The notes under the pieces are model-generated. The model saw only the letters and a list, made by a program, of their open reading frames with translations. It did no database searches and was not told where the DNA came from. Made by a program: the position numbers and the translations under genes. 20,052 bases of DNA from a virus, in IMG/VR virus record IMGVR_UViG_3300043466_003647, positions 1 through 20,052 of that record, one strand, 5' to 3'. Position 1 is the first letter of the stretch. Every line of letters begins with the position of its first letter. This document shows, one piece after another, positions 6,651 through 20,052 of the stretch.

Positions 6651-6953
6651 ATGAAAAAAAGAATTAGATTAACAGAAGCAGAATTAATAAAATTAATAAC
6701 TCGTGTTATAAATGAACAAAATGATGAATTAGAATCAGAATCAGAATTTTCTAATTCAGATTTATTAGAACTTATTGAATATCGTGCAGAAATTTATGAA
6801 ATGGCAAGTGATATCCTTGGGGAAGAAGCTATCCAGTATTCAACAGACGAAGTTTGTGAAAAATTAATGGAAACTGGTGAACGTAGTGCAAGACATTTAG
6901 CTAAAGAAATTAAACGTGTTGATTCAGAATTTAAAATGCATAAAAACAAGTAA
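6651..6953 (+). CDS. Small acidic protein with putative capsid-targeting N-terminus
   Basis: A 100-residue protein, acidic and helical, with no recognised fold. The N-terminus KRIRLTEAELIKLITRVINE (residues 3-22) closely parallels that of the next gene and of the minus-strand gene at 8819-9214. It ends with I-N-E, which fits the P3-P1 part of the T4 gp21 cleavage rule (Leu/Ile-x-Glu before a small residue), although here Gln follows. In T4, internal head proteins are directed into the prohead by a short N-terminal sequence that gp21 removes. By analogy this could be an internal head protein, which is inference. Translation starts directly after the 514-aa gene (stop at 6647-6649, ATG at 6651). 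Confidence 0.6.
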   Translation: MKKRIRLTEAELIKLITRVINEQNDELESESEFSNSDLLELIEYRAEIYEMASDILGEEAIQYSTDEVCEKLMETGERSARHLAKEIKRVDSEFKMHKNK

Positions 6954-6965
6954 AATTAGTATATA

Positions 6966-7817
6966 ATGAAAAATAAAATTAGAATTAGTGATTCAGAATT
7001 AGTAAAAATTATTAATAAAGTTTTAAAAGAAGACAAAAATGTAGAACATGCTAATTATATGTTCTTTGCAAATTTAAGTAAAATTATTGAAAAATGTGAA
7101 GAATTATTAAGTATGGATAAAGATTTAATTGATGTAATTTTGGAAAAAGGCCATGATTGGGCTGATGACCACTTATCATCTGCAGCTGAAAATATTGACC
7201 AAGTATATGAGTTTTTAAAAGGTGAAGTTGATAAGAAAAGTGAATATGTGGATTATGAAGATGTTGATGATATGAAAGCTTTAAAAGAGTCAAATTTAAA
7301 TTTTTTTAATGGTAAACCAATATCATTAATTAGAAGACGTATTAATACAAAATTTAATATTAATACAAATAAAATTGAAAAAGTTTTTGAAGATGAAATT
7401 ATTGAAGGTAGAATTATTGAAGAATCTAAAAACAATATTACATCAAAACCATTTTTAAAGGTTAAATATTCAACTGGTAATTTAGATAAAACAACTTCAA
7501 TATTTTTTAATTCAGAAACTGGTAAATATGTAGATGTAAATTCAGTTAATAAATATGAATTTATGCCACTAAATGAAACTGATAGTAAAATTTTAAAGGT
7601 TTTTAAAAATATTCAAAGTAAGTTTGATGATATTAATTTAATTAATGAAGGTCGTAAAAAATCTGGAACTAAACTTTGTGCAAGAGGTAAATCTGCAGCA
7701 AAAGCTAAATTTAAAGTTTATCCCAGCGCATATGCGAATGGATACGGAGTTCAGGTTTGTAAAGGTAAAAAACCTGGATTAGATGGTAAAAAAAGATGTT
7801 CACCACCATATTGTTAA
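6966..7817 (+). CDS. Candidate internal head protein with basic Cys-rich C-terminal domain
   Basis: A 283-residue protein in three parts. Residues 4-22 (KIRISDSELVKIINKVLKE) repeat the N-terminal signature of the neighbouring 100-aa gene. Residues about 25-225 are acidic, helical and then beta-rich (IIEGRIIEE, FLKVKYSTG). Residues 229-283 are strongly basic, with 12 Lys, 3 Arg and only 1 Asp. They contain LCARGKSAAKAKFKVYPSAY, a motif I associate with small phage proteins of unknown function, and four cysteines (238, 265, 278, 283). The junction is NLINE-G at 224-229, which matches the Leu/Ile-x-Glu/Gly type of site cut by T4-like prohead proteases, so the basic tail may be released inside the maturing head. 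The gene is the last of the plus-strand run and ends before a strong terminator. Confidence 0.62.
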   Translation: MKNKIRISDSELVKIINKVLKEDKNVEHANYMFFANLSKIIEKCEELLSMDKDLIDVILEKGHDWADDHLSSAAENIDQVYEFLKGEVDKKSEYVDYEDVDDMKALKESNLNFFNGKPISLIRRRINTKFNINTNKIEKVFEDEIIEGRIIEESKNNITSKPFLKVKYSTGNLDKTTSIFFNSETGKYVDVNSVNKYEFMPLNETDSKILKVFKNIQSKFDDINLINEGRKKSGTKLCARGKSAAKAKFKVYPSAYANGYGVQVCKGKKPGLDGKKRCSPPYC

Positions 7818-7834
7818 TGAATCGAGTGAATAAT

Positions 7835-7872
7835 TAAATAAAAAGGCCCCATTTTAGGGGCCTTTTTATTTA
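7835..7872. terminator. Bidirectional intrinsic terminator
   Basis: A perfect 16-bp inverted repeat (TAAATAAAAAGGCCCC at 7835-7850 and its complement at 7857-7872) encloses a 6-nt loop. The GGCCCC/GGGGCC core is flanked by A and T runs on either side, so both strands give a GC-rich hairpin followed by U residues. It lies between the ends of two convergent genes. The stop codon of the minus-strand FKBP gene (7870-7872) is inside the stem. Confidence 0.93.
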
Positions 7873-8301
7873 TGAAGATATCACATTCAAAACTTCTAAA
7901 TCAAATATTAAAGTTTTTCCAGCCATTGGATGATTACCATCAATCTTAACTGTGGTATCATTAATTTCTAAAACTTTAACACTAATTGGCCCCCACGGAG
8001 CATTTGCTTGCAACATTTCACCAATAGTAACAGTTTCAGGAACTGAACTTTTTGGAACTTCAATTATTAAAGATTCAATAACATCACCATAAGCTTCTGA
8101 AGGTTCAAGTTCAATAGTTTTAGCTTCACCAATTGACATACCAACAAGATTATCTTCAAAACCTTTAATTAATCTACCTTCACCAAGTGTAACAGTTAAA
8201 GGTTCTCTACCTTCAGTTTTTGATGTATCAAATACTGAACCATCTTGAAATCTACCAGTGTAATTTACAACAACTGTGTCTCCTAATTTAATTTTATCCA
8301 T
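7870..8301 (-). CDS. SlyD-like FKBP-type peptidyl-prolyl cis-trans isomerase
   Basis: A 143-residue protein with the two-lobe layout of SlyD-like FKBPs. The N-terminal FKBP part has GDTVVVNYTGRFQDGSVFDT (7-26), GEGRLIKGFEDNLVGM (40-55) and EPSEAYGD (66-73). An insert-in-flap region follows at about 74-120. The FKBP fold closes with NHPMAGKTLIFDLEVL (123-138), which is typical of the family. It lacks the His/Cys-rich metal-binding tail of E. coli SlyD. The enzyme catalyses proline isomerisation and the flap domain gives chaperone activity, here probably in the host cytoplasm. A phage copy beside structural genes may help fold an abundant virion protein. The start is ATG 8301, with the motif AATAAATA at 8313-8306 four bases upstream. 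Confidence 0.94.
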   Translation of the reverse strand: MDKIKLGDTVVVNYTGRFQDGSVFDTSKTEGREPLTVTLGEGRLIKGFEDNLVGMSIGEAKTIELEPSEAYGDVIESLIIEVPKSSVPETVTIGEMLQANAPWGPISVKVLEINDTTVKIDGNHPMAGKTLIFDLEVLNVISS

Positions 8302-8305
8302 AATA

Positions 8306-8313
8306 TATTTATT
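8306..8313 (-). promoter_or_regulatory. Possible T4-late-type promoter box before the FKBP gene
   Basis: On the minus strand the sequence reads AATAAATA, one base from the T4 late promoter consensus TATAAATA and fitting the looser NATAAATA form. It is only four bases from the ATG. In such AT-rich DNA a chance match is quite possible. Confidence 0.35.
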
Positions 8314-8356
8314 AATTTAAGTATAATTAAAAAAATAAAAAAAATCAATTAATAAC

Positions 8357-8384
8357 TTGAATTAAGATTTTTTTTGTATATTTG
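8357..8384 (+). promoter_or_regulatory. Bacteroidota-type housekeeping promoter
   Basis: TTG at 8357-8359, a 17-nt spacer and TATATTTG at 8377-8384 match the Bacteroidota primary-sigma consensus (TTG at about -33, TAnnTTTG at about -7). Transcription would begin near 8390, giving a leader of roughly 16 nt before ATG 8406. This points to host-polymerase, probably early, expression of the downstream gene. Confidence 0.7.
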
Positions 8385-8405
8385 CAATCTAAACTAAACA
8401 TATAT

Positions 8406-8822
8406 ATGAGAAAAAAAAGATTAAATAAAAAATTAAGAATTGTTTTTCGTAAAATTCTACGTAAATTGTTTAAACCGTTAAATTCTGAAGAATATCGTAT
8501 AACATTAAATGATATTCAAAGTCAAGCTTATGTAAATGTTAAAAAAATGATTCAACATAAAGATTCAATATTAACATATGCTCCAGAATCACAATCTTAT
8601 TTAGTTCAATTAGATGAATATTGCGCAAAAATTAATTTTGAAACTTTAACAATTAAAAATGGAAAATTTTCTTATTATATTTTAATGCCAAGATATTACA
8701 ACATAAAATTAGTAAAATGTTTTAATAATACTTGTGAAAAAAGATTTAAAGATTTTGATAATAAATTTAATCAAAACGCTTTAAAACATTTGGAAGAAAT
8801 CTATTCAAAAATTACAACTTAA
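8406..8822 (+). CDS. Small basic protein of unknown function, own host-type promoter
   Basis: A 138-residue protein. The in-frame TTG at 8382 lies inside the predicted -7 element, so ATG 8406 is the likely start. The N-terminus is very basic (MRKKRLNKKLRIVFRKILRK), a possible nucleic-acid-binding or membrane-surface helix. The remainder is mixed alpha/beta with an ITLNDIQSQAYVNVKKMI helix, a two-strand FETLTIKNGKFSYYILMP segment, two cysteines and a C-terminal helix. I recognise no family. It is expressed alone, with its own Bacteroidota-type promoter and a terminator hairpin just downstream, which makes it a candidate early host-takeover gene. Its stop overlaps the stop of the convergent gene by four bases (TTAA, 8819-8822). 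Confidence 0.55.
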   Translation: MRKKRLNKKLRIVFRKILRKLFKPLNSEEYRITLNDIQSQAYVNVKKMIQHKDSILTYAPESQSYLVQLDEYCAKINFETLTIKNGKFSYYILMPRYYNIKLVKCFNNTCEKRFKDFDNKFNQNALKHLEEIYSKITT

Positions 8823-9214
8823 TTTTTTAATAAAAATTCTTTTAAAACGAGTTTTATTGTTGAATCAAGAGACTCGTTTTTTCTTTTTTTATGTGATACC
8901 ATAGTTGGTTTATTACCCTTACCCACTTTAGGATTCTTTTTTTCAGCTCTTCTTTTTTGTGAACACGCAGCTTTTTTTTGACTATCGGACATCTTAGAAG
9001 CTACATGTACAGCTCTACATTTAGGATATGCTTTACTACTTGCATTATCTCTACCACAAGGTGGGTGTTTACCGTTTTCATCTTTTCTACAAATATTTAC
9101 CCATGGGCCTTTTGGCTGTTTAGAACCTTTGGGTTTCTTTTTTGTTCCAAACCAAACCCCTAAATCTTCATTTAGATTATCTAATATTTCTTTTTTTGTT
9201 ATTATTTTTTGCAT
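8819..9214 (-). CDS. Very basic Lys/Cys-rich protein with putative capsid-targeting N-terminus
   Basis: A 131-residue protein. The N-terminus QKIITKKEILDNLNED (2-17) parallels the signatures of the two plus-strand small proteins and contains an LNE tripeptide. Residues about 20-110 are extremely Lys/Arg-rich, with KKKPKGSKQPKGPWVNICRK, HPPCGR, AYPKCRAVHVASKM and QKKAACSQKRRAEKK. This looks like the small Lys/Cys-rich proteins of unknown function seen in many tailed phages. Four cysteines (about 42, 53, 67, 84) could bind zinc. The C-terminus has a short amphipathic helix with LKE. The charge suggests DNA binding, and with the N-terminal signature this supports packaging in the head. A TATAAATA box on its strand (9250-9243) lies 28 bases before the ATG. 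Confidence 0.6.
   Translation of the reverse strand: MQKIITKKEILDNLNEDLGVWFGTKKKPKGSKQPKGPWVNICRKDENGKHPPCGRDNASSKAYPKCRAVHVASKMSDSQKKAACSQKRRAEKKNPKVGKGNKPTMVSHKKRKNESLDSTIKLVLKEFLLKN
8844..8887 (+). terminator. Intrinsic terminator inside the convergent gene
   Basis: AAAACGAGT (8844-8852) and ACTCGTTTT (8872-8880) form a 9-bp stem with a 19-nt loop, followed by a T-rich run. It would stop plus-strand transcription of the gene ending at 8822, although it lies within the coding sequence of the minus-strand basic protein. Confidence 0.6.
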
Positions 9215-9265: not shown

Positions 9266-9505
9266 ATGGATAATATAAATGAAGAGACCGTCGAAAAAGA
9301 TTTAAAATTATTTGGTAATTTGGGATATAATAATATTATTGTAATTAATCAATTAATTGATGATATGGATGAAAATCTGGCATACCTTATTATAACACGA
9401 GCATGTAATTATGCATATGAAAATCATATATTTACATTATTAGAATCTGAAATACTTTCAAAAGCTTTAAGATTAATACAAAAAAATAATGAATCAAATA
9501 ACTGA
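9266..9505 (+). CDS. Small helical protein, unknown function
   Basis: A 79-residue acidic, all-helical protein (ETVEKDLKLFGNLGYNNIIV, NLAYLIITRACNYAYE, LLESEILSKALRLIQK). No family was recognised. The 3' end overlaps the start of the homing endonuclease gene by 17 bases in another frame, so translation of the two may be coupled, or the endonuclease gene may have been inserted at the end of this gene. Comparison with relatives lacking the endonuclease would show whether the C-terminus is native. Confidence 0.5.
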   Translation: MDNINEETVEKDLKLFGNLGYNNIIVINQLIDDMDENLAYLIITRACNYAYENHIFTLLESEILSKALRLIQKNNESNN

Positions 9506-11117
9506 ATTATATATTGCAGGAAAATCTATTAATGAGCTATGTGAAATTTATAAATTAGGTAAATTGAAAATTAAATCAATTATAACTTTAGATGGTATAG
9601 AAATACGAAAAAAAGGTGGAGTTACAAAGAATTTTTCAGTTGTAAAAAAAGATTTATCAGAATTTTCTATTAAGTGTAAACAATGTGAAAAAATTTTCAT
9701 AAACGTTGATAACAAAAACGGTTCAATTATAGAACATATTAAAAATTGTTATCCTAATATCGATATATTAAGTTCATTTAAACGTAGAGCGTATTTACAG
9801 AATACTGGAATGCCTTGGCATTTAAACTATTTTGATTTAATACCTAAAATACATAAAGAATTTTTAAATTGTAAAATTTGTAATTGGAAAACTAATGATT
9901 TAAAAAATATTACTGGAAGTTTAACGAAACATATTGTTAATAATCACTTTTCAATTAGTGAATATGTTAATAAATATCCGTCAGAAATTTATTTATTTTC
10001 AAATTATAATAAATTTGTCGAACGTGATAAATTATTTAAAGATTCTGATAATTTTGTGTTATGCGAAATCTGCAAAGAACCATTTAAAACGATTTCAAAT
10101 ACCCATTTATCATTACATGGGTTAAATACTGATGAATATGTTAAGTTATATGGTAATAATTCTTTAGTTTCAAGGAATAAAAAAATTGAATATTTAAATA
10201 ATTTAAATAATTTAAATAATTCTTCATACATTCCTAAGTATAGAAGTGAAGATGAAATTGAAATTGAAGAATTTATTAAATCTTTAGGTATTAATTATAT
10301 AATTTGTGATAAAAAAATTTTAAATGGTGCTGAATTAGATATTTATTTACCAGATTTTAATATTGCGATAGAATATAATGGTTTATATTGGCACTCTGAA
10401 AAACAAGGTAAACATAAAAATTATCATCTTGATAAAACTAATTTATGTATTAAAAACAATATTAGATTAATTCATATTTTTTCAGATGAATGGAGAACTA
10501 AAAAAACAATAATTAAAGATAGAATCTTAAATTTACTTGGTATGAAGGTGAATAAAATTTATGCAAGAAAATGTAAAATTGTAATACTAACAAAAGATGA
10601 AAAATCAAATTTTTTAAATAACTATCATTTGCAAGGAAATGATAAATCTACAATTTATTTAGGTTTAAAATATAATAATGAATTGGTTAGTTTAATTACT
10701 TTTGGTAAATTAAGAAAAATTTTAGGTAATAAAATCAATAATATTGATGAATATGAAATATATAGATATTGTAGCTTAAATGTTATTGGTGGATTCAGTA
10801 AATTGTTAAATTATTTCATAAAAACTTATAATCCAAATAAAATTATTACGTATTCTGATAGAAATTGGTCACCATCTAATGAACATTGTTTTTATGGTAA
10901 AATAGGCTTTGAATATTTAGGAGTAACAAAACCTAATTATTGGTATACTAAAAAATATACTAAAAGAGAACATAGATACAATTTTAGAAAAAATAAATTA
11001 ATTGAACTTGGATTTGATAAAACTAAAACCGAAAATCAAATTATGTATGAATTAGGTTATGACAGAATTTGGGATACTGGTAATTTAAAATTTGTATATA
11101 ATAAAAAAGGGGAGTAA
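9489..11117 (+). CDS. Free-standing homing endonuclease with Vsr-like nuclease domain
   Basis: A 542-residue modular protein. Residues 1-42 look like a resolvase-type helix-turn-helix (Y..G.SINELCEIY). Three zinc-finger-like pairs follow: C63/C66, C128/C131 with H148/H153, and C192/C195 with H206/H210, the last followed by GLNTDEYVKLYG. Residues 252-340 form a Vsr/EDxHD-type nuclease: AELDIYLPD (281-289), IAIEYNGLYWH (292-302), YHLDKTNLC and IHIFSDEW. Acidic residues D284 and E295 plus H302 are candidate catalytic positions. Residues 358-500 form a further module (YARKCKI, LQGNDKSTIYLGLKY, VIGGFSKLLNYF, ITYSDRNWS) that accompanies such nucleases in phages. The enzyme would cut intron-less or endonuclease-less alleles of a nearby gene to spread itself. 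It lies beside the capsid gene and ends in a terminator. Confidence 0.9.
   Translation: MNQITELYIAGKSINELCEIYKLGKLKIKSIITLDGIEIRKKGGVTKNFSVVKKDLSEFSIKCKQCEKIFINVDNKNGSIIEHIKNCYPNIDILSSFKRRAYLQNTGMPWHLNYFDLIPKIHKEFLNCKICNWKTNDLKNITGSLTKHIVNNHFSISEYVNKYPSEIYLFSNYNKFVERDKLFKDSDNFVLCEICKEPFKTISNTHLSLHGLNTDEYVKLYGNNSLVSRNKKIEYLNNLNNLNNSSYIPKYRSEDEIEIEEFIKSLGINYIICDKKILNGAELDIYLPDFNIAIEYNGLYWHSEKQGKHKNYHLDKTNLCIKNNIRLIHIFSDEWRTKKTIIKDRILNLLGMKVNKIYARKCKIVILTKDEKSNFLNNYHLQGNDKSTIYLGLKYNNELVSLITFGKLRKILGNKINNIDEYEIYRYCSLNVIGGFSKLLNYFIKTYNPNKIITYSDRNWSPSNEHCFYGKIGFEYLGVTKPNYWYTKKYTKREHRYNFRKNKLIELGFDKTKTENQIMYELGYDRIWDTGNLKFVYNKKGE
10192..10218 (+). repeat. Three tandem 9-bp repeats (AT-rich)
   Basis: The unit ATTTAAATA is repeated three times in frame and encodes Asn/Leu repeats in the linker between the zinc-finger region and the nuclease domain of the homing endonuclease. 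It is likely a slippage-prone flexible linker. Confidence 0.7.
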
Positions 11118-11159: not shown

Positions 11160-12998
11160 TTATCTCAATTCTCTTAAGTCAAATGTACGTACACCATCGA
11201 CAGTAATTCTACCGAAGAAACGGTTATTAACCATCTTCTTAGCATATCGTGTCATTATTCCCTTTATAGGAGTAAAATTGAATGGATTATACATTGTTGG
11301 TGTTAATTGAAGTGGTACATATGGAGCATAAATGTAACCAGTATCAAGAAGCGAAGTACCCTTATGACCTAATAACAATGTGTTAGCTGGGAAATATGGG
11401 TCACGATATACTTGATAACGACCTGCTAATGTACCAACTCTTTCGATACCCATGTTGTATTGGTCTTGCTCAGGTGCAGCATTTGACACGTGGAAGTATT
11501 CCAAGTCATCAAAAATCGCACTGATTTCAGAAGATACTACAATCCAGTTAGCACCACCACGAAGTGTTGATTTGTGGATTTGAGCTGAGATTTGGTTGAT
11601 TGTAGTAATCAATGTTTGGTTCCAATCTTTCTGAGTATAAGCTGCGTTACCAGTTGTACCTAATCTTCTCCAACCATTGTAATCCCAACGTAATGTCCAA
11701 GCAGCACCTTTACGAAGGTCACGTAAAATTTCACGGTCAATTTCTGCAGCAATTTGCTCAGAAAGTAAAGCTGTCAATTCAGCTTCAGCATCAATGTTGT
11801 GGAATGCCGCAACGTCTTGAGCTAATTCTGGAGACCATTGAGCTCTAAGTTTTCTTTCTGAAACTGATACAGTTACTGACTCAAGGTCAAATGAAACTTC
11901 ACCAATTTTATCTTCGAATTCAAGTTCTTCATAACGTCTGAATACAGCTACGAAAGAAGTTGCAGAAGCTGCTGAGAAGATTGTACTTCCTGTATAACCA
12001 TCAAGGGAGTCAGTTGTACAATCTGTACATACTGGGCACTGAAGGTCAACTTCTAAGAAAATACAACCATCTTGTGAACAGATGTTGTTATATGTTCCAC
12101 CATTACCATTTGGCCAAATTGTTGGAGTTAATGTGCTTGTAGGTGAAACAATACCTTTACCATATTGTTGTGTTACAACACGGAATGGAAGTGGACCTGA
12201 AAGATTTAAGCAAGTTGATGTTGCTGCGGATAAACCTGTAGACCTTAAGATACGTAAATCTGACAAGAATGTTTCAGAATCTACTTCAGAACCATCAGGA
12301 CCCATTAATTTACCAACACCATTATCAAAGAAACCACACATTTTAACAATAAGTTTTCTTACGTTAACTGATGATGTAATAGATGATGGTACTAAACTGT
12401 TAGAACTCCAAACTTGAACTTCAGTACTTGCAGTAACAGCTGACCACTGACCTTTTGAATAGTCAAACAATCCAGGAGGGTCAAGGCTTGGTTCTGAACC
12501 TTCATAGAATAAATCGTAAAGATTCTTTTGGAATGAATTTGCACCACCTGCAGCAGGATAACCAGCATCAGGGTCTCCAGGATAATTACCAGGTGAACCT
12601 ACAGGAGCGTAATGTGTAGTTGATTGGTTAGCATTTGCCCAAGGAGCAGTTCCTCCAGTATAACCTTGGATACGTGGAACAAAGAAGAACAATTTACCAA
12701 TTGGTAAGTTCATCGCTTGAACTGATACGATATCGTTAGCTAAAAGTTTTGAGAACACTCTTCTAACAATAGGAAATACTACTGTTTCAAATGAACCTGA
12801 AGAATCTGTAGAAGATGCTTCGTTTATCAAGAAACTTGCTTGGTTTTCGTATAACTGAGCAACGTTTTCTTTCAAATGGCCTTTTAAGCCTTCAAGGAAC
12901 CCTAAACGGTCCCATTTGTTGATGGTGTCTTCTTTGATAACTTTAAGGTGTTTTAACCCAATATTACCAACAAGACCTGATTCTAATAATGCACCCAT
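11160..12998 (-). CDS. 23: Major capsid protein, T4 gp23-like
   Basis: A 612-residue precursor (T4 gp23 has 521). The N-terminal 60 residues are a helical delta domain with LYENQASFLINE-A at 50-61. The INE/Ala site fits gp21-type processing, so the mature protein would start at Ala61. Then come FPIVRRVFSKLLANDIVSVQ (75-94) and a P-loop/core of HK97 type. A surface insertion of low complexity lies at 110-180, and a Cys cluster at 307-327 (C307, C312, C321, C324, C327). The C-terminal part ends with YAPYVPLQLTPTMYNPFNF and a TRYAKKMV segment typical of gp23 (T4: APYVPL then TRYG). Codons are visibly richer in GC than neighbouring genes, as expected for the most abundant virion protein. It follows the scaffold gene with 29 bases between. 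Confidence 0.97.
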   Translation of the reverse strand: MGALLESGLVGNIGLKHLKVIKEDTINKWDRLGFLEGLKGHLKENVAQLYENQASFLINEASSTDSSGSFETVVFPIVRRVFSKLLANDIVSVQAMNLPIGKLFFFVPRIQGYTGGTAPWANANQSTTHYAPVGSPGNYPGDPDAGYPAAGGANSFQKNLYDLFYEGSEPSLDPPGLFDYSKGQWSAVTASTEVQVWSSNSLVPSSITSSVNVRKLIVKMCGFFDNGVGKLMGPDGSEVDSETFLSDLRILRSTGLSAATSTCLNLSGPLPFRVVTQQYGKGIVSPTSTLTPTIWPNGNGGTYNNICSQDGCIFLEVDLQCPVCTDCTTDSLDGYTGSTIFSAASATSFVAVFRRYEELEFEDKIGEVSFDLESVTVSVSERKLRAQWSPELAQDVAAFHNIDAEAELTALLSEQIAAEIDREILRDLRKGAAWTLRWDYNGWRRLGTTGNAAYTQKDWNQTLITTINQISAQIHKSTLRGGANWIVVSSEISAIFDDLEYFHVSNAAPEQDQYNMGIERVGTLAGRYQVYRDPYFPANTLLLGHKGTSLLDTGYIYAPYVPLQLTPTMYNPFNFTPIKGIMTRYAKKMVNNRFFGRITVDGVRTFDLRELR

Positions 12999-13027: not shown

Positions 13028-14662
13028 TTATTTGTTTATTTTTGACATTAAATCTTTAATTCTTGTGAATTGATTATTTTCATGTACTTTATTTTCAATT
13101 AAATGTTCTGAAGAGCCTGTTTTTTGAACATTGTCAATTTTATCAAAAGATTCTTTAACAATATTTTTATTTTCGTTCCCTAATTCAGATTTAATTGTTT
13201 TGTAAAGATTTTTAGATTCTTTGATTGATTCGATGTTATCAAATCTTCTAAGAATATTAATCTTTTCTTGTTTAGTTGTTGAATGTTCAGTGAATAATCT
13301 TGTAGCATAAGCTAAGTTTGAATTAAATACAGCAACTTCATTAAGTTTTTCTCTGAAAATGTTTAATGCTTTTCTATATTCTTCATTCTTTTGTCTTAGT
13401 AATACCAATTCTTCATCATTAGATTCAACTTTTAAGCTACGAGGAGCACTTCTTGGTTTTGATAAACCAGGTTTACCCCAGAATTTACCAGACTTTAATG
13501 TGCGTGAAGCTTCCTTAGTTTCAGCTTTCTCAGCTTTTGGTTTTCCAGCTTTATCTGGGTCTGGTTTAAAAGGATGTTTTGGTTTAGGTTTAGTAGTTGG
13601 CTTAGTAGTTGGTTTAATTTTAGGTTTTGCTGGAGCATCACTCTCTTTAAACTCAAACTTTGGTTTACCAGTTCCCATTTTAGAATTAGCGTGTTTCATA
13701 TTTTCTTTAAAACCACCACTTGATTTTTTAAATTTAAAACTTGGCTTGCCCATACCAACACCTTTAGGTTTGAAAGCTTCTGTTGTAATTTCTTCATCAT
13801 CAAAATCAAAATCTTCTTCATCATCCATTACGATTTCAAAAACGACTTCATCATCTTCCATTTCATCCATTTCAGACATTTCCATATCTTCCATATCTTC
13901 CATATCTTCCATTTCATCCATTTCATCCATATCATCCATATCATCCATTTCATCCATTTCAGACATTTCATCCATATCATCCATTTCATCCATTTCATCC
14001 ATTTCCATATCTTCCATTTCCATATCATCCATGTCCATGTCCATGTCATCCATATCTTCAAAATTGTTCATATATTCGTTTTCCATTTCTTCTGACATTT
14101 CATCAAAGTCATCTTCATCAGATTCATCGATAGTAATTCTGTATTCAACATCATCATTATCATCTTTTAAATGAATCTCATCATCTTCTTTAGTTACTAT
14201 GATTCCGTCTTCATTACCCATAGCTTTAAAGACTTTTAAAATTTCTTCGTCAGAAGCATTTGTTAAATCTATTGGTTCGTCGTCCATATCAGGCATGTTA
14301 AACTCTTCAGAGTCATCAAATTCTGCATCAATATCTTCAGAATCTGCTTCAACATCTGACGACATTTCAATATCATCAACTTCTTGATTATCATCATCAA
14401 TATCAATGTTGTCAATTTCTACATCTTCTACTTCATCATCTACCATTTCATCATCATCCATTTGTTCTGATAAATCTGTTTCAAAATCGACCTCATCCAT
14501 ATCGGATTCTTCATTTTTAGTCATTAATGACTCTTTTACTAATTCATTAATTTCTTTGCTCATAGTCGAGCTAAGTATTTCTTTTGCATTTTCTTGTAAC
14601 ATGTTTTCCAAGTTGTTAACTTGGATAAGTGTTTCTTCAACAATGTTTTTTTTGTCTACCAT
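13028..14662 (-). CDS. Prohead core scaffold protein (gp22-like position), hyper-acidic
   Basis: A 544-residue protein placed between protease and capsid genes, exactly where T4 has the scaffold gene 22, but twice as long (T4 gp22 is about 269). Residues 1-50 are helical (IVEETLIQVNNLENMLQENA). Residues 50-300 are dominated by Asp/Glu, with a run of Asp-Met and Glu-Met dipeptides at about 200-271. Residues 300-410 switch to Lys/Pro/Gly-rich repeats (GKPSFKFKKSS, GKPKFEFKE, KPTTKPTTKPKPK). Residues about 418-500 form a coiled coil (LLRQKNEEYRKALNIFREKL, LAYATRLFTEHSTTK). Several LKVES/IKES/VKES sites could be protease targets. A scaffold that is degraded and expelled before DNA packaging is the likely role. 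The charge-segregated middle is unusual. Confidence 0.8.
   Translation of the reverse strand: MVDKKNIVEETLIQVNNLENMLQENAKEILSSTMSKEINELVKESLMTKNEESDMDEVDFETDLSEQMDDDEMVDDEVEDVEIDNIDIDDDNQEVDDIEMSSDVEADSEDIDAEFDDSEEFNMPDMDDEPIDLTNASDEEILKVFKAMGNEDGIIVTKEDDEIHLKDDNDDVEYRITIDESDEDDFDEMSEEMENEYMNNFEDMDDMDMDMDDMEMEDMEMDEMDEMDDMDEMSEMDEMDDMDDMDEMDEMEDMEDMEDMEMSEMDEMEDDEVVFEIVMDDEEDFDFDDEEITTEAFKPKGVGMGKPSFKFKKSSGGFKENMKHANSKMGTGKPKFEFKESDAPAKPKIKPTTKPTTKPKPKHPFKPDPDKAGKPKAEKAETKEASRTLKSGKFWGKPGLSKPRSAPRSLKVESNDEELVLLRQKNEEYRKALNIFREKLNEVAVFNSNLAYATRLFTEHSTTKQEKINILRRFDNIESIKESKNLYKTIKSELGNENKNIVKESFDKIDNVQKTGSSEHLIENKVHENNQFTRIKDLMSKINK
13850..14060 (-). repeat. Low-complexity Asp-Met/Glu-Met coding repeat
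   Basis: About 210 bases made of 6-bp units (GATATG, GATGAA, GAAATG on the coding strand) encode alternating Asp/Glu and Met residues in the scaffold. The near-identical units invite replication slippage and length change in multiples of 6 bp, which keeps the frame. Confidence 0.85.
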
Positions 14663-15029: not shown

Positions 15030-15758
15030 TTATTTTGACAAATAATGAGATAATTTTTTCATTAAGTCAAGTGACTTATTTCCATTTTTAAAACTTTGGT
15101 CAATAAATTGGTCTTGTCTTAATTTTTTCTCTTCTTCAAGATTCTCTTCATATTTTAATCTATCTTCTTTATTTAAAAATAGATATGCTCCAGGTGTTGA
15201 TGGCGAAGACACTAAGTCAAAGCATATTAATTCAAAATCTGATTGTACTTCATTTTGCTCACCTTTTCTTACCAAAGAACCAACACCTCTTGATGATATT
15301 CCTAAAGTTACACCTTGACGCAGATAATTTGCCGCCATATCACCTTTACAAGAAATAATCCCTCTTTCATGAAATCCTGGGGATGTTAATAATTTTAACT
15401 TACCCATTAGCACATTTGCTTCCCACCAAATTTCATTAATAATATGTGAAACTCTATCCAAATCAATTAATGAGGATTCTGGATGATTTAATTCGGATAA
15501 TGAAATACCTCTTGCAATAGCTTTTTTATAATTTTCAGCCTCACGTCTTAATATCTTTTCTGGATATATTCTACCATTTCTATTTGGTGTATCGTATTTT
15601 TGTAATACTGCATAAAATTCAAAAGGTTTAGAATGGTCTAAAAAATTATTAGATTCTTCAATAATACGTTTATTTCTATCATCTGAAGGTGTTACATACC
15701 CAGCATCCCACTCAATTAATATACCTTTACCTACGTCATTTGGACCCAATATTTTCAT
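15030..15758 (-). CDS. 21: Prohead maturation protease, T4 gp21-like
   Basis: A 242-residue protein. It has the herpes/T4-type prohead protease layout: an N-terminal beta domain with YAVLQKYDTPNRNGRIYPEK (49-68), SLSELNHPES (86-95) carrying the candidate catalytic His92, LGISSRGVGS (152-161) carrying the candidate nucleophile Ser155 or Ser156, and FELICFDLVSSPSTPGAYL (175-193), typical of the family, with D181. A charged C-terminal tail (about 195-242) may bind the scaffold or be self-cleaved. The enzyme degrades the scaffold and trims capsid and internal proteins at Leu/Ile-x-Glu sites. It heads a short operon with the 70-aa gene and is preceded by a TATTTATTATTAAAAA leader. Confidence 0.93.
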   Translation of the reverse strand: MKILGPNDVGKGILIEWDAGYVTPSDDRNKRIIEESNNFLDHSKPFEFYAVLQKYDTPNRNGRIYPEKILRREAENYKKAIARGISLSELNHPESSLIDLDRVSHIINEIWWEANVLMGKLKLLTSPGFHERGIISCKGDMAANYLRQGVTLGISSRGVGSLVRKGEQNEVQSDFELICFDLVSSPSTPGAYLFLNKEDRLKYEENLEEEKKLRQDQFIDQSFKNGNKSLDLMKKLSHYLSK

Positions 15759-16356: not shown

Positions 16357-16548
16357 ATGTTAATAGTAAAAGTTGAAAACAAAAATTTAGACAAGGCTTT
16401 AAAAATCTTGAAAGGTAAAGTAATTAAATCTAAACAAGTTGAAGAACTCAAAGAGAAACTTGAGTATAAAAGTAAATCGCAGAAAAAAAGGGCTTTAAAA
16501 ACTAAAGCCCAATTTAAAGAAAGATTTAATAGTAAGAATTACCGATAA
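16357..16548 (+). CDS. rpsU: Phage-encoded small-subunit ribosomal protein bS21
   Basis: A 63-residue protein, the normal size of bS21. The start MLIVKVENKNLDKALKILKG matches the bS21 opening strand and first helix (I.V...E..D.ALR.LK), followed by a second helix with VEELKEKLEYKSKSQKKRAL (29-48), which parallels the family R.R..Y.KPS.KR. element, and a basic C-terminus. bS21 joins the 30S subunit near the 3' end of 16S rRNA. In Bacteroidota it also takes part in burying the anti-Shine-Dalgarno sequence. Phage copies are known from other tailed phages. The gene is the only plus-strand gene in the head cluster. It has its own promoter, and its stop abuts the stop of the convergent gene without a gap. 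Confidence 0.9.
   Translation: MLIVKVENKNLDKALKILKGKVIKSKQVEELKEKLEYKSKSQKKRALKTKAQFKERFNSKNYR
16483..16510 (-). terminator. Terminator for the portal transcript, embedded in bS21
   Basis: AGGGCTTTA-type arms at 16490-16497 and 16503-16510 form an 8-bp GC-containing stem with a 5-nt loop. On the minus strand the hairpin is followed by seven U residues (bases 16489-16483). It would end the transcript of portal and the 234-aa gene, although it lies within the bS21 coding sequence on the other strand. Confidence 0.7.
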
Positions 16549-17298: not shown

Positions 17299-20052
17299 TT
17301 ACTTATTTTTATCCAATAAATTGTTAATTTTAGTATTTAAAATATTTAATGATTTTATCCCTTTTAGATAATCAATATTATCTTTTTGTTCAACTAAAAT
17401 ATTAAAGTTTTTTTCAGTTTTTGATTCTGGAGTTATCGCAACAGGTTCAACTGGTGTGGTTTCAGCTGGACCTTCAATACCTGATTCTATAGGTGTTTCA
17501 GTAGGTGCTACTTGATTTTCTGTTGACCCTGTAGTTTTTCCACCATATAATGAATCAATATTATCAAATATTCCAGTTTTTGTAATAATATTTGGAGTAT
17601 TTGCCAATTCTGCAGCAACTGCTCTTTCAACTCTTTGTTGTTGAATATCCAATTTAATTTCTTCTTCTGAAAATCCGAGAATATGCTTTTTAGCATAAGA
17701 TACTGATGTTGGAGCAATTCCTTCAATTGATGTTACAGCATCTTTGTATAATAATATTTTCTCTTTCCAAACATCTATTTTTAATAAATCTGCTTGGGCT
17801 GATGGATTATTTAATAATAAAGTAAAATTATTTAATTCATCTTCAAACCCTAATAAAAACAAATGAATAATGGCGATTTTATTTAATTCCGCCAACATGC
17901 TTTTTTGTATTCTATTAATTGTTCTTGCAAATCTAATGTCTTGCAATGATAAATTTTTACCCCCACCAGCAGCTTCTTCAAATCCTAAAAATGCTTTTGG
18001 CACTCGTAAAGCCGTTAATAATTTCTTTTGGATGTATTCAATATCTGCTATTTCAGAAAGGTTAGAATTTTTTACAAATATTCCAGATTCCAATGCAAAT
18101 GTGTGTGATTTTGAATATAATTCATTACCATCCACGGTAATGGTACCTGTATCCATCTTGGTTTCTAACCATTCTATAGATACAATCTTATGGTTAAAAT
18201 TACTTTGTTTGTCAACATGGTATTTCCACTGACGGATATTTTTATATCCACGGATTCCACATTTGGTTTTTTTCCAATCCGAAAAATTCTTAAACCCACG
18301 TTCTTTAATCATTTTATCAACGTGATTAAGTGTAAACGTATCCAAATTTGTCATGGAACTTCTTATGCCTGAATTCAGTTCTCTAAATAATGAGATAAAC
18401 AATTCGTTCTTATTAAGAATGTCAAGTGTTTTGTCAGCTCTTAAATTAGTTTCGAATACCGAAACAAATTTATTATAGATTTCATCACCAAAAGTAATTG
18501 TTTGTTTTTTACTAAAAACTTTATCACTATATTCGGTATTGTTCCATTTTTTCTTAGATTCTTTAGAAAACCATTTTTTCCTCTCATCCGTAAACGCTTC
18601 TGAAATTTTTTTACCCTTTATTTTAAGGTTATCTTTATTTTGGTTCCAAGCTAAAAGTTTTTCGGTTGTTTTGCGCTTAACAATTGGGTTATTTATCCTC
18701 TCCATTCGTTCTTTAAAAGAATCATCTGACAAATTGTTTAAATAACGTTTTACTCCGTCAGAAATTTTCTTTTTATTTTCAGTTGGGTTAGCCCATATTG
18801 TTTCTTTGATAACACTTTGATGGTACTCTATATGGTCACCACCATCCATTAAGAGTAAATTATCTGGATTATTATTATATCTATTATGATTTTTGTGGTG
18901 AATAACATTTTTATTTCCAACTTGTTTATTTGGATTAAAATTCCACTCCTTAATCAAACCAAATTCAGCTAATTTATTTTTTACCATTCTGTGAGTAAAA
19001 ATCCATTTACCTTTTTCATTATCCCAAATTTGTTGGTAGGTATTTGTGTTAGATTTAATCTTCTCTTCTTGTCTATAAAAAGGCATTAAAGAATCACCCA
19101 CATTCAAATTTTGCGCTTCAACAAACCCGTTTGTTCTATGAACAAATTTGTGGTCGGGCGTTGTTATTATTTCTTCGCCATTATCCAAAGTAATTTTCAT
19201 CACTTCGGCATTTTTTCTTGTAATACCAGCCCAAGTAATCATACCTGGTTCTGGTGAACCTGTTTTTGGGTCGCATGAGTAAACCCAAAGATTTCTGTTT
19301 CCATTATCCCACTCATTAATTATTTCTGATAATGTTAAAACTCTACCGTCTAATAATGGTATTTTTGTATCTAAAGAAATACAAGCTCCAGGTAAAGTAT
19401 CTATAGGACTTGGTGCTGCAGTGTCACGTACAGGTACAAAGTAGTCTTGGTCAACAGCCATTTGATTGAATCGTAAATCAACATTTCCAGTTTTATTATC
19501 AACAACTTGTGAACGTTTAAATTTATTTGCTACACGCTGTACATAAGGCTCAACATCAGCATCATCCATATTCCCAACGAAAATTTTAAATATGCGTCTT
19601 TCTGGAGCTCTTGATGTGCGATAAATTAACATAGCATCTTCGGACAGAAGTAATTGTTTCCAAATCCTTCTTGCTTTATCTAACATACTGGTCCCATACG
19701 GAAGTTTTCTATCATCACCAAGAAGCCTGAAATGTGCAATCTCCCAAGTATTAAACTCCATATCTTTATTCTTCCAAGCAAACATCAATTTTTTCTGTTG
19801 ACCCTCAACATTTGTTAATTGAGATTGCCCATTCATACCTTTTTCAACACGTTCAATCTCAATATTTGGTAATTGCATACATCCAACAATACCTTTATCA
19901 GGGTCAAGTTTTAAACTGACAAAATTATCACCATATTTACAAGTATTTCTTGTCCACATTGTTAGATTTGTATTAATATCTAAAGTATTATTAAATAAAT
20001 CTGACAATATTGATTTTATTCTTGGCGATTCTGAATATATTTTTAAAATATC
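17299..20052 (-). CDS. 20: Portal protein, T4 gp20-like, interrupted by an intein (5' partial)
   Basis: The frame is open to the right edge of the window and the TTG at 20007 is an internal codon, so the start lies outside. Of 917 visible residues, 439 are intein (feature at 18067-19383), leaving 478 of extein; T4 gp20 has 524. The N-extein has LDINTNLTMWTRNTCKYGDN, WKNKDMEFNTWEIAHFRLLG and RIFKIFVGNM, typical of gp20. The motif DTLPGA precedes the intein and SNLSEIADIEYIQKKLLTAL plus RVPKAFLGFEE follow it. In T4 gp20 these form one continuous conserved stretch. The C-extein ends in a Pro/Thr/Glu-rich linker and a short helix. The portal forms the 12-subunit ring at the head vertex through which DNA is packaged and ejected. 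It must be spliced to work. Confidence 0.95.
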   Translation of the reverse strand, partial: DILKIYSESPRIKSILSDLFNNTLDINTNLTMWTRNTCKYGDNFVSLKLDPDKGIVGCMQLPNIEIERVEKGMNGQSQLTNVEGQQKKLMFAWKNKDMEFNTWEIAHFRLLGDDRKLPYGTSMLDKARRIWKQLLLSEDAMLIYRTSRAPERRIFKIFVGNMDDADVEPYVQRVANKFKRSQVVDNKTGNVDLRFNQMAVDQDYFVPVRDTAAPSPIDTLPGACISLDTKIPLLDGRVLTLSEIINEWDNGNRNLWVYSCDPKTGSPEPGMITWAGITRKNAEVMKITLDNGEEIITTPDHKFVHRTNGFVEAQNLNVGDSLMPFYRQEEKIKSNTNTYQQIWDNEKGKWIFTHRMVKNKLAEFGLIKEWNFNPNKQVGNKNVIHHKNHNRYNNNPDNLLLMDGGDHIEYHQSVIKETIWANPTENKKKISDGVKRYLNNLSDDSFKERMERINNPIVKRKTTEKLLAWNQNKDNLKIKGKKISEAFTDERKKWFSKESKKKWNNTEYSDKVFSKKQTITFGDEIYNKFVSVFETNLRADKTLDILNKNELFISLFRELNSGIRSSMTNLDTFTLNHVDKMIKERGFKNFSDWKKTKCGIRGYKNIRQWKYHVDKQSNFNHKIVSIEWLETKMDTGTITVDGNELYSKSHTFALESGIFVKNSNLSEIADIEYIQKKLLTALRVPKAFLGFEEAAGGGKNLSLQDIRFARTINRIQKSMLAELNKIAIIHLFLLGFEDELNNFTLLLNNPSAQADLLKIDVWKEKILLYKDAVTSIEGIAPTSVSYAKKHILGFSEEEIKLDIQQQRVERAVAAELANTPNIITKTGIFDNIDSLYGGKTTGSTENQVAPTETPIESGIEGPAETTPVEPVAITPESKTEKNFNILVEQKDNIDYLKGIKSLNILNTKINNLLDKNK
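18067..19383 (-). mobile_element. Intein with HNH homing endonuclease in the portal gene
   Basis: 439 codons, in frame. It begins with Cys1 (CISLDTKIPLLDGRVLTLSE) and has a Hint block B TTPDHKF (74-80, His78) and a block F/G end HTFALESGIFVKN followed by Ser+1. The penultimate residue is Lys instead of the usual His. The insert holds an HNH nuclease (NVIHHKNHNRYNNNPDN, 159-175) and, at about 200-300, several basic helical repeats (KKISDGVKRYL, KKISEAFTDERKKW, KKKWNNTEYSDKV) like NUMOD-type DNA-binding modules. The splice point is the highly conserved DTLPGA/SNLSE motif of portals, as expected for an element that homes into conserved sites. Self-splicing joins Ala to Ser. Confidence 0.93.

Follow-up and report, generated by a model that had tools for sequence, protein, structure and literature searches.

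The internal proteins IPI, IPII and IPIII of phage T4 carry a capsid-targeting sequence (CTS), a short N-terminal leader that ends in L/I-x-E and stands in front of unrelated small proteins, and the T4 major capsid protein (MCP), gp23, is cut within its own N-terminal region, at FLTE↓A (the arrow marks a known or predicted cut throughout). In IPIII the first 10 residues suffice for packaging, with targeting and processing residues being separate (PMC9026906). Here we describe a comparable arrangement in a virus record of 20,052 bases (IMG/VR record IMGVR_UViG_3300043466_003647, hereafter the window), where two plus-strand proteins, P1 and P2, share an N-terminal segment of about 22 residues, which we call the tag, in front of unrelated payloads. 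The likeness to T4 extends to the gp21-gp22-gp23 head set and to quickly varying payloads, and the tag probably serves capsid targeting and processing as in T4, with a differing sequence, in a clade of large uncultured T4-like phages.

The tag was searched for with a regular expression and then with a hidden Markov model (HMM) over approximately 160 relatives. Built without the window, the model recovered exactly 2 of the window's 22 open reading frames (ORFs), P1 (21.3 bits, i-E 1.9e-5) and P2 (12.9 bits, 0.008), and BLASTP aligned the two proteins across the N-terminus (E 2e-6); their likeness is not chance. Both follow the pattern K-h-x-L-T-E-x-D/E-L-x-x-h-h-x-K-V-h-x-E (h, hydrophobic). 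A first-pass annotation, made from the sequence alone, had assigned a common N-terminal signature to P1, P2 and a minus-strand protein, P3, and had read it as a modular tag with a gp21-type site at its end. The coordinates and quoted peptides of all three proteins were correct, and an N-terminal profile of the genome and its relatives, which it had suggested building, recovered the tag in P1, P2 and many relatives. Both the shared signature and the modular tag, as the best reading, thus stand for P1 and P2 but not for the N-terminus of P3.

The position of the tag is strict. In five long related contigs, matches of at least 10 bits are placed on protein N-termini (Fisher p ~1e-19), and all 79 matches of at least 15 bits among 37,614 stop-to-stop frames are N-terminal, 3 apparent exceptions merely being frames without a called start. 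A second contig set, drawn by a narrower tag profile (at least 461 places confirmed), yielded, among the matches listed, 121 N-terminal matches of at least 15 bits in 7,557 frames and no internal match of at least 12 bits in those frames. The 121 tagged proteins are expected, because the set was drawn by the tag, and the informative results are the lack of internal matches and the variety of payloads. Random contigs, with 1,605 ORFs, gave a single weak N-terminal match of 13 bits.

The anatomy of the tag was derived from 168 distinct examples: L-T-E, S or any residue, D/E/Q, L/I, two free positions, two hydrophobic and two mostly basic residues, V-I/L, one free position, E and then mostly Q. 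The most invariant residues are the Glu of LTE and the Glu of VIxE (each in 167/168); the position before the second Glu is free, and the residue two before it is I, L, V or M in every case. When 98 payload representatives were aligned (consensus MKKIIRLTESDLTRIVKRVIxEQ), conservation ended just past the final Glu. Synonymous codons vary nearly as much in the tag as in the payload; the constraint is therefore on the protein, and neither a signal at the nucleic-acid level nor copying in the very recent past is likely. A second N-terminal form, MKIKITESQLxxL, was seen on other payloads, including a lysozyme-like protein (contigs L056, L081, L107 and L263). We found no earlier description of the motif in the literature searched, mostly outside subscription journals, and a search with the motif letters returned nothing relevant.

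Across the relatives and other IMG/VR contigs the tag precedes approximately 120 kinds of unrelated protein, with 28 payload clusters in the relatives' set and 98 in the second set (among the matches listed), which agrees with the earlier observation that the remainders of the proteins are unrelated; a single 304-kb contig has about 19 tag matches. The payload domains that could be recognised are LysM, PG_binding_1, L,D-transpeptidase (YkuD/Tlde1), Phage_lysozyme2 and endolysin-type PHROGs, together with the families DUF6576 and DUF6241, of unknown function. Recognisable payloads are mostly cell-wall (peptidoglycan) proteins, while many others are small and of unknown function, and several have hydrophobic segments that look membrane-like by eye. 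Such cell-wall and membrane-like payloads plausibly fit injected proteins. No metabolic or replication enzyme was found among the recognised payloads, and the tag is absent from 41/41 homologs of known enzyme and structural genes in five long contigs, including DnaB, RecA, SSB, TerL, ThyA, PhoH, portal, MCP and sheath; baseplate proteins are also without it. The occurrence on cytoplasmic phage enzymes that the first-pass annotation had named as counting against its proposal was thus seen in none of the core genes tested. A scan of 84,980 cellular genomes with one stricter pattern found only 8 places, 3 of them in one metagenome-assembled genome (MAG); because its pattern set was not that of the viral scan, the ratio between the two is only rough. 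That MAG, the alphaproteobacterial UBA3650, has tagged genes on contigs DFKH01000024, -32 and -114 (L286, L288 and L289), a terminase-like ORF on L289 and a gp21-type protease on another contig; from their gene content, the three tagged contigs look like phage DNA.

The h-x-E rule at the end of the tag recurs at other predicted processing sites. In the relatives, LINE↓A or LINE↓S stands at residue 60 of the capsid protein. In P2 homologs, [MILV]xE lies directly before the basic C-terminal domain in 49/49 distinct sequences (LINE↓GRKK in the window), and the P3-type junction [LIV]xE↓DL(A/G)VW is found in 56/56 distinct relatives, with neighbouring positions free. The background frequency of h-x-E is 2.5% per residue, and the 49/49 and 56/56 counts, coming from related sequences, show conservation and are not independent trials. 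P3 homologs also have an N-terminal (I/L)xE↓AT site in 54/66 cases by a simple pattern, several of the rest having wrong starts. In the podophages P-SCSP2 (PSCSP2_00019, encoded between the scaffold and MCP genes) and HTVC023P (gp51), the homolog of the P2 C-terminal domain is a separate, tag-free ORF with its own Met start, MAKLCARGK or MTKLCARGK, at about the place where the predicted cleavage would leave this domain in P2. To our knowledge, T7-like podophages such as these have no head protease. An AlphaFold2 (AF2) model of P2 shows a single helix at residues 9-22, a loop and a helical domain, the C-terminal part being of low confidence, and a fold search with this weak model gave no significant match.

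P3 was rejected as a third copy of the tag: the leave-window-out HMM did not find it, BLASTP of P2 against P3 gave nothing, and its first 16 residues, KIITKKEILDNLNE, align in the middle of homologs of about 235 residues and so belong to a different element. The C-terminus of P3, as in many of its homologs, resembles the helix half of the tag. The N-terminal EISELVKESL of the scaffold-position protein and the C-terminal KSLDLMKKLSDYLGK of the protease, with their homologs, also resemble the tag helix and the P3 C-terminal helix, and these segments are perhaps a shared core-binding element.

We favour a capsid tag because of its strict N-terminal position, the approximately 120 payload kinds, the invariant Glu of h-x-E and the presence of a gp21 homolog; because of the MCP site LINE↓A, the h-x-E sites at the P2 and P3 junctions and the absence of the tag from the 41 genes; and because of the Met start of the podophage domain, a leader swap in the huge phage LR756502 (described below), the cell-wall payloads and the IPIII precedent (PMC9026906). 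The prohead would form around the scaffold, and the short amphipathic helix of the tag would dock the protein onto the core. A gp21-type protease would then cut after VINE or VLKE at the tag end, perhaps also after LTE, and the same enzyme would cut LINE↓G inside P2 and LNE↓D inside P3, as the conserved sites suggest. Cleavage would strip the tag and release the payload domains within the head, where they would remain with the DNA and enter the cell at infection. Such a portable tag would let phages equip a large, fast-changing set of small proteins.

Several observations weigh against this assignment. Gln usually follows the tag, as opposed to the Ala typical of T4 sites, and a simple N-terminal propeptide does not account for the helix at the C-terminus of P3. 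A gp21-type protease (phrog_207) is present in 22/28 tagged contigs but also in many untagged large ones; among contigs of at least 100 kb, 15/17 tagged and 5/8 random untagged contigs, the latter drawn by a random 15-mer, have it (p 0.28), and this co-occurrence is non-discriminating because such proteases are common in large untagged contigs. One tagged contig of 274 kb has no phrog_207 match. When named phages were searched by tblastn with the bare tag, a query so short that the search is insensitive, no named isolate with the tag was found, nor did we find virion proteomics of any tagged phage. Finally, the tag could serve some other complex as its docking helix. In some of the large contigs (G018, G021, G022, G032, G034, G038 and G065) the phrog_207 matches span in-frame stop codons, for which alignment overrun, an intron or recoding are candidates.

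The docking alternative places the tag in a cytoplasmic or membrane complex, serving for example replication, transcription or host takeover, with h-x-E as helix chemistry. Protein-binding elements often have the shape of an amphipathic helix with a terminal Glu, and the single helix of the AF2 model, the helix-only form at C-termini and the many small payloads of unknown function would suit it. Conservation of both Glu residues exceeds, however, that of every hydrophobic helix position, the same rule recurs at unrelated P2 and P3 domain junctions and in MCP, no tested replication enzyme is tagged and cell-wall payloads are unsuited to the cytoplasm, so that we consider docking of this kind unlikely. 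Less probable still is a role in targeting the tail, neck or portal vertex, which would make the proteins external or tail-lumen parts and not head cargo. P1 and P2 do follow a run of probable tail or neck genes, and lysozyme-like payloads are often tail proteins, but a bulk compartment fits so many unrelated payloads, h-x-E processing belongs to the prohead interior, P2 and P3 lie near MCP in many relatives, and sheath and baseplate proteins are untagged. We give hardly any credence to a secretion or periplasmic localisation signal acting in the infected cell, despite payloads that act on peptidoglycan, since the tag has no hydrophobic core or lipobox, has several Lys/Arg in its helix and is nearly absent from cellular genomes. 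Equally little can be said for recent duplicates that share a functionless N-terminus by descent: tagged genes often lie in tandem runs, but the sharp boundary after VIxE holds over about 120 payload kinds, codons vary and the tag is kept across divergent contigs on payloads without similarity.

If the tag is indeed a capsid tag, capsid loading of the T4 style has a version that is independent in sequence and larger in scale. For many large uncultured phages a simple N-terminal profile would then name the probable injected proteins, the majority of which lack a match to any known family, and the tag would offer a testable handle for packing foreign proteins into such heads. A broader proposal, which we hold tentatively and consider close to evenly balanced, is that giant uncultured phages have a general head-loading system, in which one address helix at either protein end would serve large, changing effector sets and domains would be excised at h-x-E sites inside the head; the tag alone would then expose the injected protein repertoire of a phage.

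The genomic setting of the tag locus, which is flanked by gp20, gp21 and gp23 homologs, is given in Table 1. The minus strand of the window carries a T4-type head block, identified by PHROG matches, in the order portal-protease-scaffold-capsid, which corresponds to gp20-gp21-gp22-gp23, the scaffold being assigned only by position, acidity and conserved neighbours; it has no PHROG match. The portal gene contains an in-frame, intein-like, HNH-bearing insert (GACISLDTKIPLLDG...FVKNSN) with portal matches on either side, and the free-standing homing endonuclease beside the capsid gene has a position comparable to T4 segD beside gene 23. These head genes bear out the earlier description of a T4-like phage; the Bacteroidota host that it proposed remains a candidate, and Bacteroidota-type promoter patterns were not enriched. 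The best isolates by protease E-value, among the matches listed, are Flavobacterium phage immuto and Microcystis phage Mel-JY01; no tag was found in immuto, but its MCP has IVSE↓A and one protein of its head region a T4-like HFIAEA.

Table 1. Features of the window, with positions counted from its first base.
Feature	Position	Strand	Basis or remark
P1 ORF	6651-6953	+	Tag plus 78-residue payload
P1 tag, residues 1-22, MKKRIRLTEAELIKLITRVINE; h-x-E triplets LTE9 and INE22	6651..6716	+	Leave-window-out HMM; 168-tag consensus
P1 payload, 78 residues, orphan acidic protein	6717..6950	+	Relatives' matches mainly in tag region
P2 ORF	6966-7817	+	Tag plus two payload domains
P2 tag, residues 1-22, MKNKIRISDSELVKIINKVLKE	6966..7031	+	Glu22 invariant in 31 homologs; helix 9-22 in AF2 model
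P2 first payload domain (NYMFFANL...), helical	7056..7247	+	Alignment, AF2 model; also in huge phage LR756502
P2 inter-domain insertion, ~120 residues	7254..7622	+	Alignment; missing from most relatives
P2 predicted second protease site, I226-N-E228↓G	7641..7649	+	Conserved [MILV]xE; low-confidence linker in AF2 model
P2 C-terminal basic Cys/Lys domain (GRKKSGTKLCARGK...KVYPSAYANGYGVQVCKG)	7650..7814	+	phrog_27331
FKBP-type prolyl isomerase	7870-8301	-	PF00254, 3e-20; between P2 and P3, within predicted head-cargo region
P3, 131 residues, shortened member of ~235-residue family; basic Cys-rich domain DLGVWFGTKKKPKGSKQPKGPWVNICRK...	8819..9214	-	phrog_23735
P3 C-terminal tag-like helix NESLDSTIKLVLKE	8837..8878	-	Common to many P3 homologs
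P3 predicted protease site, L14-N-E16↓DLGVW	9167..9175	-	[LIV]xE in relatives
Free-standing homing endonuclease	9489-11117	+	phrog_3339, 1e-106; between P3 and capsid gene
MCP, gp23 type; predicted site LINE60↓A, codon 60 at 12819-12821	11160..12998	-	phrog_138
Acidic scaffold/core protein, gp22 position	13028..14662	-	Between protease and MCP; conserved N-terminal ...EI.ELVKESL
Prohead protease, gp21 type, presumed processing enzyme	15030..15758	-	phrog_207, E 1e-40
Small ORF, weak ribosomal protein S21 match	16357-16548	+	phrog_21469, 0.0015
Portal protein, gp20 type	17299..20007	-	phrog_213; cut off at window end

Compared with the T4 CTS, which has approximately 10 residues (MKTYQEFIAE), the tag described here is about twice as long and adds an LTE motif and a helix; it also differs in that Gln usually follows the predicted cut, in that a C-terminal form may exist and in the far greater number of payload kinds. 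The tag HMM gave no significant match to T4 ipI, ipII or ipIII, and the likeness to the T4 CTS is limited to h-x-E; judged by sequence, the tag falls outside the T4 CTS family. Phages of the SPN3US/phiKZ type also have many head-internal proteins with N-terminal propeptides, which are removed by the gp245 prohead protease (PMC10052503). These propeptides are mostly long, two having 20 and 24 residues and others 111-254 (PMC10052503), and are not described as one portable tag, whereas the window belongs to a gp23-type phage. A further parallel is the huge phage LR756502 (642 kb), which encodes a gp21-type protease and carries the P2 N-terminal domain behind MENIKSFDSFNE, a T4-type leader ending in F-N-E. 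Several other ORFs of this phage, neighbours of that gene among them, also begin with T4-CTS-like leaders, such as MKYLKRFNE and MLRKYGQFINE (L207, L415-L424), and T4-like starts are modestly enriched there (21/330, vs 29/935 at internal Met), while the LTE-helix tag was not found in it with tag profile A1. The same payload thus stands under two kinds of leader in the window phage and in LR756502, which matches what a loading tag would predict.

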